Shown here: positions 31,660 to 39,021 of the stretch, piece after piece
How the letters are laid out: each line of letters starts with the position of its first letter
Numbering within the stretch: the stretch's first letter is position 1
DNA from: Pseudomonadota bacterium
GTDB lineage: Bacteria > Pseudomonadota > Gammaproteobacteria > Steroidobacterales > Woeseiaceae
NCBI GenBank assembly: GCA_022564475.1
Contig: JADFLJ010000002.1
Span: forward strand, 1-45,664
Direction: 5' to 3'
Length of the DNA: 45,664 nt
Program-made: the position numbers and the translations under genes
The notes under the pieces: model-generated
What the model was told of the DNA's origin: nothing
The model's input: only the letters and a program-made list of their open reading frames with translations
The model's database searches: none

Positions 31660-33308
<1,649 letters not shown>

Positions 33309-33313
33309 CAGAC

Positions 33314-34033
33314 ATGAACACTATGAATACATGCGAAGAATACAGAGAAGCCATTGCAGCGGAGCCGTCGTTTGACGGTGGTGCCGCGCACTTGTCGCAA
33401 TGTGCGTCTTGCCAGGCATTTCGTGCAGAGATGCTGGCGCTCGACTTGAAAATCAGCAGCGCACTGGCGATCAGTGTTCCTGAGCTCAAGCTGCCGGAGT
33501 TGCCTGAATTGGATACGAGCAAGGTCACGGCAATGCCGCTGCGCCGTTTTGCTCAGCCGGCCTGGCTTGCGGTTGCCGCAACCGTCACATTGGCCGCCTT
33601 CATTGGTTTTGGCATGTTCGGCAGTGACGTGTCGAATGCGACGCTGGCAGAACAAATTCTCGTCCACATCGATCACGAGCCGGGTGCGTTTCGCGTGGTC
33701 GACGAAGCCGTGACAGACAAACGGCTGGCACGCGTTGTTCCGGCGAATATTGCGACATTGAATCACAGCGCCGGACTGATTACCTACGCCCGGAGTTGTC
33801 TCATTAATGGTCGTGAGGTACCGCACCTTGTAATCCAGGGCGAGTTCGGCCCCATAACAATCCTGCTCATGCCCGGGGAAAAAATAACAGGTGCGCAGAC
33901 CATCGAAGGCGAAAACGTGCACGGCATTATCTTGCCGGTCGGCGACGGCAGCATTGCGATTATTGGTGAGGTCGGCGAGCACCTCGAACGAATTGAAAAG
34001 CAAGTGATGAATTCAGTGACGTGGAGTACTTAA
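33314..34033 (+). CDS. DUF3379-like membrane protein, putative anti-sigma factor
   Basis: N-terminal zinc-finger-like HLSQCASCQAF, one TM (PAWLAVAATVTLAAFIGFGMF), and periplasmic domain; directly follows the sigma factor. Confidence 0.75.
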   Translation: MNTMNTCEEYREAIAAEPSFDGGAAHLSQCASCQAFRAEMLALDLKISSALAISVPELKLPELPELDTSKVTAMPLRRFAQPAWLAVAATVTLAAFIGFGMFGSDVSNATLAEQILVHIDHEPGAFRVVDEAVTDKRLARVVPANIATLNHSAGLITYARSCLINGREVPHLVIQGEFGPITILLMPGEKITGAQTIEGENVHGIILPVGDGSIAIIGEVGEHLERIEKQVMNSVTWST

Positions 34034-34091
34034 ACGCCGCAAGCTGAAATGAATGCCCATGCTAGGGCGCAATGCAGTAGGAGAGAAGACA

Positions 34092-34529
34092 ATGTCAGAG
34101 AGAAAAGTAGTAAAGCCAATTGCTTTGGCTGTTGGCGCGGCCCTCGCAGGCGCATTCGCGATCGGTAGTGTCGCAAGCGCTGAGACCGTTGATAATCCGT
34201 TCGAGATGTCTACGCTGACGGCCGGCTACATGCTGGGCGAGGGCGAAGGATCTTGCGGCGGTGACAAGAAAGACAAGGACGGCGAAGGTTCTTGTGGTGA
34301 AGGTTCTTGTGGCGGCGACGACGACAAAGACGGCGAGTCTGAAGATAAGGACGGCGAAGGTTCTTGTGGCGGCGACGATGACAAGGACGGTGAAGGTTCT
34401 TGTGGTGGCGACGACGACAAGGACGGCGAGTCTGAAGATAAGGACGGCGAAGGTTCTTGTGGTGAAGGCTCTTGCGGTGGCGACAAGGAAGACAAGGACG
34501 GCGAAGGCTCTTGCGGTGGACTGGTCTAA
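34092..34529 (+). CDS. HvfA/bufferin-like Cys-repeat RiPP precursor peptide (8 x EGSCG)
   Basis: MSERKVVKPIALAVGAALAGAFAIGSVASA signal-like segment, then NPFEMSTLTAGYMLGEG and repeated EGSCG motifs separated by D/K/E linkers. AGGAGAGAAG RBS; start ATG 34092. Confidence 0.75.
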   Translation: MSERKVVKPIALAVGAALAGAFAIGSVASAETVDNPFEMSTLTAGYMLGEGEGSCGGDKKDKDGEGSCGEGSCGGDDDKDGESEDKDGEGSCGGDDDKDGEGSCGGDDDKDGESEDKDGEGSCGEGSCGGDKEDKDGEGSCGGLV

Positions 34530-34569: not shown

Positions 34570-34599
34570 AGGCCCGCGTTTTACGCGGGCCTTTTTTTA
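34570..34599 (+). terminator. Rho-independent terminator
   Basis: GGCCCGCG-TTTTA-CGCGGGCC stem-loop followed by TTTTTTTAT. Confidence 0.92.
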
Positions 34600-35389: not shown

Positions 35390-35830
35390 ATGAACGATGA
35401 ACTGAATGGCGGCACGCCCATGACGCACTGGCTCGTCGCCGGCGCAGCTTTGATCTGGAACCTGTTTGGCTTCATGGTCTATCTGATGACAGTCAGGGCG
35501 ACACCCGAGCAACTGGCGCAGCAATACAGCGCCGCCGAGATCGCGTTCATGGATGCGGTCCCGGTCTGGGCAACGTCCGCCAACGCCATCGCGGTTACGG
35601 CGGGTGTGATTGCCTGCGTGTTGTTGTTGCTCAGGAAGTCGCTGGCGCTGCCACTGTTCGTGGCGTCGCTGGCGGCACTGCTGGTGCAGGACCTGTACTC
35701 GTTCGTGCTCGAAGATGTCGTGGGCGTTTTCGGTATGGTGCCGGCGTACATCCAGGGAACCGTGCTCGTTATTGCGATTGCACTGATCTTTTATACGCTT
35801 GGTGTGAAAAGTCGCGGGCTATTGAACTAG
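35390..35830 (+). CDS. Four-TM hypothetical membrane protein
   Basis: 146-aa ORF with about 4 hydrophobic helices; GAGAGGGAAG upstream. Confidence 0.7.
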   Translation: MNDELNGGTPMTHWLVAGAALIWNLFGFMVYLMTVRATPEQLAQQYSAAEIAFMDAVPVWATSANAIAVTAGVIACVLLLLRKSLALPLFVASLAALLVQDLYSFVLEDVVGVFGMVPAYIQGTVLVIAIALIFYTLGVKSRGLLN

Positions 35831-35841
35831 TCGTCTCACAA

Positions 35842-38800
35842 TTAGTTGCGAATCGTAATCAGGGTTACGCCGGCCAGGCCTTGCGGCGTAATGTGCGAGA
35901 TGCCGCCCAGGTAGGTCGTATCGGAGTTCAGGTTGAACCAGTCAACCGTCACGATCTCGGTCGTACCGGCATTGACCGTGGCCGGCCCGCTCGCAGTCAT
36001 GTTGCCGCGGTCATCCACTTCGCCGAATGCCCAGGACAACATCGTGAAGACAGCGCCCAGGCCGCCAGCGTCCTGGTCGGTCTCAAAACCGTGAACGAGT
36101 ATTGCGTAGATGCCGGCAGGCGGGCGGAACAGGTCAAAGCGCTCATCCGATGTCGGGCCCCCGCTCTCACCAATCTTCACACAACTCGCGCCGTCGTCAC
36201 CGCAAAAGTAAACGTGCATATCGAGGTCGTCGTTGCCGTCGGTTAGTGCATCGAACAACGCGAACCGTAAATACAGCTGATTCGCAGGCACTCTTATCGC
36301 GATCTGCGTGACACCGTTGCCGCTGCGAAACGTGAAGGTCTTGGTTGGGTCATTGTTCACAAAGACGTCACGATCGATGCGCGGCAACCTGAGCCCGTGT
36401 ACCTGTGGCTCGTAAGTTCCCGTGTAGCCGAACTCGACGTCGAAGTCGATGCTGCCTGTGCCGCCAAATGACGTGATCTCTGTTGGCGCTGTCACCGAGA
36501 TGGGCTTAACCGCAATCGTGCTGCGTACTGAGTGCGTGCCGTCGCTCCAGGTCAAAGACCCAAAGCGCCAAAGGTCCAGCGGACCAGAAATATAATCGAT
36601 CGTCACGTCGAAACTGGCCGACTCACCGGGGCCAAGCGTCAGGGTCGGCGGATTGACGCTGACCTGCATATCAACAGGCGTGGCGATCGATGCCGTGTAA
36701 GTGGCACTCTGGTCACTAACGTTGGTGACCGTTCGCGTCACGGTCCTCGAGTTCGCGAGGCGTGCGACCGCGATCGACGGCTGGTTCATCTCGGCCGGAT
36801 CGAGCGAAAAGCCTGCGTCTTTGAGATCTGTACAACGATCCGTCGTCACGGCCTCGAGCTCAAAGCCACAGGCGAACGCATCGTAGTCGTCTGCCGTTAA
36901 TTCATAAACCAGCCCGGGATCCGTCGCGGCGTTCGGGACGATATGTCCCGCACCAAACTCGAACGGATGGGCCTGTCCCTCACCGTCGGACTGCGTCAGA
37001 TCCTGCCGTGAGCTCGTCATGAGTGCAGACTTGATTGCGGCTGGACTCCAGTCCGGGTGTGCTTCCATCAGCAGTGCGGCAACGCCCGCGACATGCGGTG
37101 TTGCCATCGACGTCCCGCTCAGGAACGCGAAGGTCTCGTTGGGTGCTGCATTGACGGCGTCGGCCGTGAAGCCCGCCAATATATTGACGCCGGGTGCCGT
37201 GACATCCGGCTTCATGATGTCTTGCGCGGGCCCGGGTCCACGCCCCGAGAATATGGCCATGATATTGCCGGTCTCGCTTTCGGTCAGCAGCAGTCCCTTG
37301 TCGAGGACGACATCGACGGTGTTGCCGGCATCGAATTCGGCGATGAACAGATTACCGTCCGCCTGGCCGACCATGAGCGCCGGTATGTTCACGAGCGCGG
37401 CATCACCGTTCATGACGATCGGGTCGCCGGCGATGTTGTACACGAGCACGGCGACTGCACCGGCATCTTCGGCATTCGATATCTTGATGTCGAATTCGCA
37501 ACCGCCACGCTGAATAAATGCGATGTTGCCGGAAATGTTGTCGCCATTGATCAGCGCTTCGCAGGCATCTGACGCCGTGCCCGCGGCACCGCTCTCCAGC
37601 GTGTCCTCACCATCATCGACGAGTACCAGCTTGCCTTCGATCGGGTCGTTATCCGCGAGTGGCGGCGTAAAATTGGCTTCACGAACCGCATACTTGGCCG
37701 CGATTGAAGGCGGCGATAGAACCTGCATGGCTTCACGCGAAAGCTCGCCGTCGCGTGTTGCCGCGGCAGCCGTAATGACCCAGGGGCCGCCCGCCGGCGA
37801 GCCAATCGTTCCAAGGTTGGGCCCCTCATTGCCCGCCGCAACAACGCTGACGATGCCGGCCTTGGTGGCTGCAAGCAGTGCCGCGTCGTCGGGCGCCGAG
37901 ATTCGCAGCATCGAGCTGCCGACCGAATAGTTGATGATATCGACGCCGTCTGCCACGGCAGCGTCAATGGCCGCTGCAAGATCGGATGTGTTGCAGCTCG
38001 CGCGCTGATCACCCGGTCGCAGCCAGCACGCTTTGTACACAGCAATACGTGCGCCCGGCGCCATGCCTTCGACGACGCCCACACGCGTGCCGAAAATGGA
38101 TGCATCCACGCGGTTGCCGGCAGCCGTCGTGGCGGTATGTGTGCCGTGGCCGTCGACATCTCGTGCTGACCGGATTTCGCCCGTGTCGATTGGGCCGCTT
38201 GCTGCGGCGCCGGCAATAAACCAGCGCGCGCCAATTAGCTTGTTATTGCAGTTGGCTTCCTCGAAGCGCTCGCCGGTTTCGCACCTGCCGTTCCAGTTTT
38301 CGGGCTCCTCGAACAAAACCTGGTCGTCGGCTCGCCGGTAACGGCGACACAGCCAGCGGCCGAGAAGCGTGTTTTCTGCCCAGCTGCTACGGCAAGCGCG
38401 TGGGCGGTCGGCCTCTTTGGTGTCTTTTAGCGCGGGATGTTCCGGGTAGACGCCACTGTCGACAAAGCCAATGACAATACCGTCGCCATCAAGCCCCTCG
38501 GCGCTGCGAAGGCCGTTCTCCGAATCGAATAGCTCAAGAAAATTGGCGCTGAAATTCGTCGCCAGCGGGCGGATCTCGTCTTCCCAAACGGCTTTGACCT
38601 CGGGAAGGTGCTCAAGCTTGTTCGCCTGCGCGGGCGTCATACGCGCGGCAAAACCGTTCAATCCGTACAAATAACTATAGACCTTGTCGACATTGCCGCC
38701 CGCGCGGGCAAGAACGCGGCTCTGCTGCTCTTGAAGTTGAGCCGTGTAAGCGATGACCGCGGCGTTGCTCTTGTCGAAGCGTGTCCGCGACGCGCCGCTG

Positions 38801-39021
38801 GCGGTGGTTTTGGAGGAAGAACGGCGCATCGCCACGAGGTGTTCTGCGGCCGGCGGCGCCACCAGCTGCACGATGTAGGTCTTGCGCTCGGCCGGGTTCC
38901 CGGAATCGGCGAGCCGCAGACTGCCCGCCGGGCCTGTGGTGAGGGGCGACTCGGCGTCGCTGCGAGCTGCGGTTGGCGCCATGAGGGCGGCGCAAAGTAA
39001 AAGATGCAGGAGATGCTTCAA
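35842..39021 (-). CDS. Secreted S8 (subtilisin-like) serine protease with inhibitor I9, PA and Fn3-like domains
   Basis: VIGFVDSGVYPEHPAL, DGHGTHTATTAAGN, SGTSMATPHVAGVAALL catalytic motifs; signal peptide MKHLLHLLLCAALMAPTAARSDA. Confidence 0.93.
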   Translation of the reverse strand: MKHLLHLLLCAALMAPTAARSDAESPLTTGPAGSLRLADSGNPAERKTYIVQLVAPPAAEHLVAMRRSSSKTTASGASRTRFDKSNAAVIAYTAQLQEQQSRVLARAGGNVDKVYSYLYGLNGFAARMTPAQANKLEHLPEVKAVWEDEIRPLATNFSANFLELFDSENGLRSAEGLDGDGIVIGFVDSGVYPEHPALKDTKEADRPRACRSSWAENTLLGRWLCRRYRRADDQVLFEEPENWNGRCETGERFEEANCNNKLIGARWFIAGAAASGPIDTGEIRSARDVDGHGTHTATTAAGNRVDASIFGTRVGVVEGMAPGARIAVYKACWLRPGDQRASCNTSDLAAAIDAAVADGVDIINYSVGSSMLRISAPDDAALLAATKAGIVSVVAAGNEGPNLGTIGSPAGGPWVITAAAATRDGELSREAMQVLSPPSIAAKYAVREANFTPPLADNDPIEGKLVLVDDGEDTLESGAAGTASDACEALINGDNISGNIAFIQRGGCEFDIKISNAEDAGAVAVLVYNIAGDPIVMNGDAALVNIPALMVGQADGNLFIAEFDAGNTVDVVLDKGLLLTESETGNIMAIFSGRGPGPAQDIMKPDVTAPGVNILAGFTADAVNAAPNETFAFLSGTSMATPHVAGVAALLMEAHPDWSPAAIKSALMTSSRQDLTQSDGEGQAHPFEFGAGHIVPNAATDPGLVYELTADDYDAFACGFELEAVTTDRCTDLKDAGFSLDPAEMNQPSIAVARLANSRTVTRTVTNVSDQSATYTASIATPVDMQVSVNPPTLTLGPGESASFDVTIDYISGPLDLWRFGSLTWSDGTHSVRSTIAVKPISVTAPTEITSFGGTGSIDFDVEFGYTGTYEPQVHGLRLPRIDRDVFVNNDPTKTFTFRSGNGVTQIAIRVPANQLYLRFALFDALTDGNDDLDMHVYFCGDDGASCVKIGESGGPTSDERFDLFRPPAGIYAILVHGFETDQDAGGLGAVFTMLSWAFGEVDDRGNMTASGPATVNAGTTEIVTVDWFNLNSDTTYLGGISHITPQGLAGVTLITIRN

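Follow-up and report, generated by a model that had tools for sequence, protein, structure and literature searches.

A serine-core HvfA-family precursor in Woeseiaceae, probably modified in trans and sharing a promoter-like element with its predicted HvfBCX enzymes

The gene at positions 34092–34529 of the window (the whole 45,664-nucleotide stretch of DNA analysed here) probably encodes an HvfA-family RiPP precursor in which Ser replaces Lys before the modified Cys, and which would be processed in trans by HvfB, HvfC and HvfX as part of a shared ECF-sigma regulon; we assign this combined explanation a probability of roughly 0.8. The original prediction, made from the letters of the window, had described an orphan precursor that was either modified by enzymes encoded elsewhere or was an unmodified thiol-rich protein. 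Bufferin-type precursors that lack a neighbouring MNIO gene are common, and it is an open question if enzymes encoded elsewhere modify them or if they stay unmodified (PMC12452194). Here a single precursor and a single enzyme set are joined by a common promoter code, which makes the present genome a directly testable case for modification in trans, and its natural Ser-for-Lys core provides test material for MNIO specificity. Members of Woeseia, relatives of the source organism, have been reported as dominant in marine biofilm on copper (PMC6917582).

The features of the precursor locus, all on the forward strand, are as follows.

32757–32782, + strand: putative ECF-sigma promoter GTAATAA-N15-GGTC before the sigma-DUF3379-hvfA operon (pattern search of the source genome; found at 28 of 28 orthologous positions)
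32790–33308, + strand: ECF RNA polymerase sigma factor of the NCBIfam PRK12517 subfamily, 172 aa (210.9 bits against a cutoff of 197; conserved upstream of hvfA)
33314–34033, + strand: DUF3379 protein, a probable membrane-spanning anti-sigma factor (PF11859, 111.4 bits; conservation; AlphaFold2 model)
34055–34068, + strand: short inverted repeat GCCC-N6-GGGC in the gap between the DUF3379 gene and hvfA (upstream alignment and sequence)
34092–34529, + strand: HvfA-family precursor, EGSCG variant, 145 aa
34092–34181, + strand: predicted Sec-type signal peptide, residues 1–30, ending ...ASA|E (cleavage site by inspection; KPxALAVGAALA conserved in relatives)
34194–34238, + strand: conserved post-signal motif NPFEMSTLTAGYMLG, a candidate recognition segment (alignment of eight relatives)
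34245–34517, + strand: core with eight EGSCG units and eight Cys (unit coordinates)
34571–34598, + strand: intrinsic terminator-like hairpin GGCCCGCGT/ACGCGGGCC followed by a T run, 3′ of hvfA (sequence)

The hvfA reading frame is real: a Shine-Dalgarno sequence (GGAG, 34080–34083) precedes its ATG and relatives share the MSE/DKK start, whereas an upstream ATG at 34053 that would give a longer frame is not conserved. It comes third in a conserved sigma-DUF3379-hvfA operon, not mentioned in the original prediction, that starts near 32757. The translation, MSERKVVKPIALAVGAALAGAFAIGSVASAETVDNPFEMSTLTAGYMLGEGEGSCGG...GLV, bears out the Sec-type signal segment that had been proposed, both by inspection and by conservation of the signal region among relatives. 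Likewise, the statement that every Cys sits in EGSCG, singly or in doublets, stood up, with all eight Cys distributed over four singlets and two EGSCGEGSCG doublets separated by D/K/E/G linkers. The eight units differ from one another at third codon positions only, all synonymously, and three or more EGSCG units occurred in none of 20,000 shuffles of the mature-region composition. The NPF/SPF...GYM post-signal motif is also found in EGKCG homologues. Inverted repeats resembling the GCCC/GGGC repeat before hvfA are present in most loci of the genus.

To place the precursor in a family, we compared it with HMM libraries, a check suggested in the original prediction. It exceeded the cutoff of the NCBIfam HvfA repeat domain NF050137 (38.5 vs 19.5 bits) and fell below that of the HvfA equivalog model NF050188 (24.3 vs 95 bits). 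Homologues from the same order with EGKCG (51.6 bits) or mixed repeats (46.0 bits) also miss the latter cutoff, indicating that NF050188 is a narrow model. A Pfam search at an E-value of 0.1 matched no family; membership in the DUF2282 bufferins (Buf1) was therefore rejected. The defining HvfA architecture, a Sec-type signal (here assigned by inspection) followed by tandem EGKCG-type Cys units, is present with EGSCG as the unit, and the genome encodes both an HvfB MNIO and an HvfC DUF2063 protein, on a contig (C171) where they do not adjoin the precursor. The usual but not obligatory placement of the precursor beside the MNIO gene was not found, as the two lie on different contigs and at distinct conserved loci across the genus; stand-alone precursors are known among the bufferins (PMC12452194). 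These results support assignment of the predicted protein to the copper-binding HvfA family (EGKCG/oxazolin, 'captophorin') as a variant, of a known kind, in core sequence and genetic organisation. The HvfA-type reading gains further from homologues with mixed EGKCG/EGSCG repeats in the same synteny and from Ser-rich homologues beside hvfB in other lineages.

In the genus, Ser predominates at position 3 of the repeat, and K, A, T, G or N appear there now and then. K and S are evenly mixed in the precursors of loci L025 and L174. In other families of the order, the same sigma-DUF3379-hvfA setting encodes EGKCG at loci L032, L034, L036 and L038 and alternating S and K at L035. Among 387 gammaproteobacteria, the doublet EGKCGEGKCG was found in 79 genomes and EGSCGEGSCG in two, the latter by a pattern restricted to TCN Ser codons that misses AGY-coded EGSCG. 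In genome G032, a Ser-rich precursor is followed directly by hvfB, hvfC and DoxX, and in G140 the end of an EGSCG precursor lies inside an MNIO cluster. On the sequences compared, EGSCG is a lineage variant. At the Lys position, the FonBC enzyme accepts A, R and T and does not accept F or E; Ser is absent from the position-3 substitutions named in the text of that paper (PMC12668002). The RR and DF motifs that contact substrate in FonB (PMC12668002) are retained in HvfB of the genus, and a search for a compensating change at the position of FonB Phe250 found the DF motif unchanged. Near the substrate-contact motif, HvfB of the genus (L003:7061–7939) carries the genus-specific residues V190 (Tyr or Phe elsewhere) and F264 (Ile or Leu elsewhere), which could be linked to the Ser core and, coming from one lineage, are inseparable from ancestry.

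The source genome was assembled from a metagenome and totals 2.44 Mb over 256 contigs, with 83% completeness and 0.31% contamination. As the original prediction had stated, no MNIO or DUF2063 gene lies within the window. The genomic check that it proposed found one of each, adjacent to one another on C171 and the only copies found in the genome, with the DUF2063 gene directly behind the MNIO gene (C171:7097–7882) and a DoxX gene next. All three products exceed their equivalog cutoffs (HvfB 415.6 vs 360, HvfC 283.2 vs 142 and HvfX 130.7 vs 80 bits), and a single HvfA-type gene was detected in the genome. Thus, 'orphan' holds for the window and fails for the genome: hvfA is orphan only locally, with one HvfB/HvfC/HvfX set on another contig.

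Both loci are conserved in the genus. The precursor locus consists of hemB on the opposite strand upstream, followed by sigma-DUF3379-hvfA-tag, in which tag encodes a DNA-3-methyladenine glycosylase, and the enzyme locus reads nth-DUF1841-hvfB-hvfC-hvfX. Approximately 60 further records, many labelled Woeseiaceae, share the synteny of the precursor locus, and these relatives point to a marine gammaproteobacterium of Woeseiaceae type as the source of the window. Downstream of tag, most relatives keep the order of the next two genes, at 35390–35830 (a 146-aa protein, no Pfam match) and 35842–39021 (an S8 protease of the subtilisin-like type), and no link of either to the regulon described below was found. 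Within the genus, hvfA and hvfBCX are never adjacent, and in every genome that has both loci they are on different contigs, including assemblies of ~40 contigs; their pairing thus rests on co-occurrence and on the promoter element. The precursor is present in 22 of 24 genomes of the same genus. Across 40 genomes, precursor and MNIO occur together in 32, MNIO occurs without precursor in two, neither occurs in six and precursor never occurs without MNIO (Fisher P = 7e-6, ignoring relatedness); in G002 and G009 the MNIO match is fragmentary. The 1.5 Mb genus genomes G004 and G011 have lost precursor, MNIO and DUF3379, together with hvfC at the enzyme locus, and within the genus DUF3379 is absent from these two genomes only, the same two that lack both precursor and MNIO. 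The relative G015 carries three further distant MNIO genes (L131, L132 and L133; 33–39% identity to HvfB) beside its own HvfB.

Alignments of upstream regions first made visible a string common to the two loci. GTAATA[A/G]-N15-GGTC lies upstream of the sigma gene at 28 of 28 loci and of hvfB at 22 of 29 (18 of 18 in the genus), with the N15 spacing invariant in all of these elements; in the source genome, the element of the enzyme locus lies at C171:7945–7970. No element was found at the starts of hvfA, tag or hvfC, and a promoter element directly before hvfA was rejected (0/27). The exact pattern occurs at six sites in the 2.44 Mb source genome and at none for the reversed control; five of the six precede sigma-DUF3379-hvfA, hvfB-hvfC-hvfX, two thioredoxin-like genes and one gene for an AhpC/TSA-type peroxiredoxin. 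In 26 genus genomes, 85 exact sites were found vs 19 in the control, and further targets seen in single genomes include DsbD, DsbC, MsrP and DM13 proteins. Orthologues of the peroxiredoxin gene, gathered without use of the motif, carry the element within one mismatch in 17 of 24 cases vs an expected 0.01, and regulon membership of this periplasmic thiol-redox gene is therefore conserved rather than incidental. The −10-like GGTC ends 7 nt upstream of the sigma ATG, as in most relatives, which hints at a transcript with little or no leader. From these placements, we infer one ECF-sigma thiol/copper-stress regulon with DUF3379 as its zinc-type anti-sigma factor; copper is the presumed inducer, by analogy with related systems.

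The precursor could be a genuine HvfA substrate while the element is a general promoter or the site of another regulator, with the neighbouring sigma factor not in control. We consider this unlikely. In its favour, the sigma factor is tied to the element by its position, through the logic of autoregulation, and in G004 and G011 (L128 and L129), which lack DUF3379 and keep nth, DUF1841 and DoxX/HvfX, the element persists, now directly before DoxX. Against this alternative, the element precedes the sigma gene at every one of the 28 loci with unvarying spacing, is rare in the source genome (six exact sites, none in the reversed control), and has an ECF-like architecture comparable to those of sigma-F in Caulobacter (PMC3511200) and sigma-E in Neisseria (PMC2893595).

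The features of DUF3379 are consistent with an anti-sigma role. Its gene follows the ECF sigma gene, and its N-terminus has the Cys...His-x3-Cys-x2-Cys arrangement of the ZAS family (C7, H26, C30 and C33, conserved in 24–25 of 28 sequences). In the C-terminal domain, predicted to be periplasmic, H118, C162 and H171 are present in 28/28 sequences and H121 in 27/28. An AlphaFold2 model (pLDDT 80, pTM 0.54) contains N-terminal helices, a helix at 84–103 that fits the hydrophobic stretch expected to span the membrane (about 84–103), and a beta-rich C-terminal domain. A sequence search found no PDB homologue, and a fold search gave only sub-threshold matches to MucB/RseB (best E 0.03), which we take as a hint. 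DUF3379 of L023, L025, L026 and L038 is without the zinc-type Cys/His N-terminus and retains the periplasmic His/Cys residues; these exceptions weigh against the proposed mechanism. DUF3379 is presumably a zinc-type anti-sigma factor and may act as a metal sensor. The literature searched contains no paper on this family, which gains a likely role from the present case.

A second alternative is that the protein is secreted without modification and buffers metal through its many thiols, much as a metallothionein does, the Lys-to-Ser change having taken it out of the substrate range of HvfB, which would serve something else. Precursor and enzymes do lie at different loci, and direct metal binding by the acidic D/E-rich linkers is conceivable. 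However, the genome search found no other HvfA-type precursor; precursor, DUF3379 and MNIO are lost jointly; both loci carry the same promoter element; Ser-rich precursors adjoin hvfB in other lineages; and FonBC is tolerant at position 3 (PMC12668002). We regard this alternative as quite improbable. Thus, of the two possibilities left by the original prediction, the single enzyme set, the co-occurrence of precursor and MNIO and the shared element strongly favour enzymes encoded elsewhere and make an unmodified thiol protein much less likely than before, and modification of the precursor in trans is likely. A third reading, in which low sequence complexity or faulty assembly accounts for the repeat and no functional gene exists, as the fragmentation and incompleteness of the assembly might suggest, is refuted by homologues in fixed synteny in 22/24 genus genomes and ~60 Woeseiaceae-type records and by units whose differences are purely synonymous.

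Under the preferred explanation, an HvfA-family precursor modified in trans, the zinc-type cytoplasmic domain of DUF3379 would keep the sigma factor inactive until copper or thiol-oxidising stress is sensed at the periplasmic His/Cys site. Once released, the sigma factor would transcribe the hvfA locus, the hvfB locus and its own gene. In the cytosol, HvfBC would act in trans on the EGSCG units and turn their cysteines into 5-thiooxazoles. After export to the periplasm, the peptide would bind copper(I), and damaged thiols would be repaired there by peroxiredoxin, Dsb and Msr proteins. A bolder version, which we hold tentatively and at somewhat less than even odds, is that DUF3379 spans the membrane as an anti-sigma factor and directly senses copper or thiol oxidants through its periplasmic His/His/Cys/His site. 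In this version, the PRK12517-type sigma factor would run a copper/thiol-repair regulon, so far undescribed, in Woeseiaceae and families close to it. The metal-binding effector would be a captophorin with a serine core, encoded and matured from two unlinked loci, and its preference for metals might differ from that of EGKCG peptides.

Like HvfA/oxazolin of Haemophilus influenzae and the Buf_EGKCG precursors (PMC13419390, PMC12452194), the protein has a Sec signal and tandem EGxCG units, with HvfB, HvfC and HvfX in the genome; unlike them, it carries Ser where Lys would precede Cys in each of the eight units, and it has D/E-rich linkers and a locus apart from the enzymes. With the fontiphorin system FonABC and the captophorins (PMC12668002), it shares an MNIO of the Lys-Cys group with RR and DF motifs, a multi-repeat precursor and an HvfC-type partner, whereas the FonA core is EGKCG and the EGSCG product here is a predicted one. 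The sigma-F/NrsF regulon of Caulobacter (PMC3511200) is similar in that an ECF sigma factor governs several transcription units, which between them encode a precursor, DUF692, DUF2063, DoxX and YedY/MsrP, but there the precursor is DUF2282, the anti-sigma factor is CC3252 (DUF1109) and the promoter is GTAACC-N16-CGAA. The sigma-E/MseR system of Neisseria (PMC2893595, PMC3240639) likewise combines an autoregulated ECF sigma factor, a ZAS anti-sigma factor, a DoxX-type protein and a methionine sulfoxide reductase target; in contrast to the present case, its genes are in one operon, its promoter differs (−35 GTMAGBWTT, −10 CGTCTAAH) and its anti-sigma factor is MseR in place of DUF3379. In the proposed scheme of regulation, an ECF sigma factor with its anti-sigma factor controls precursor, MNIO, DUF2063, DoxX and sulfur/thiol repair genes; this parallels the scheme of Caulobacter sigma-F and neisserial sigma-E, with different parts and a different promoter.
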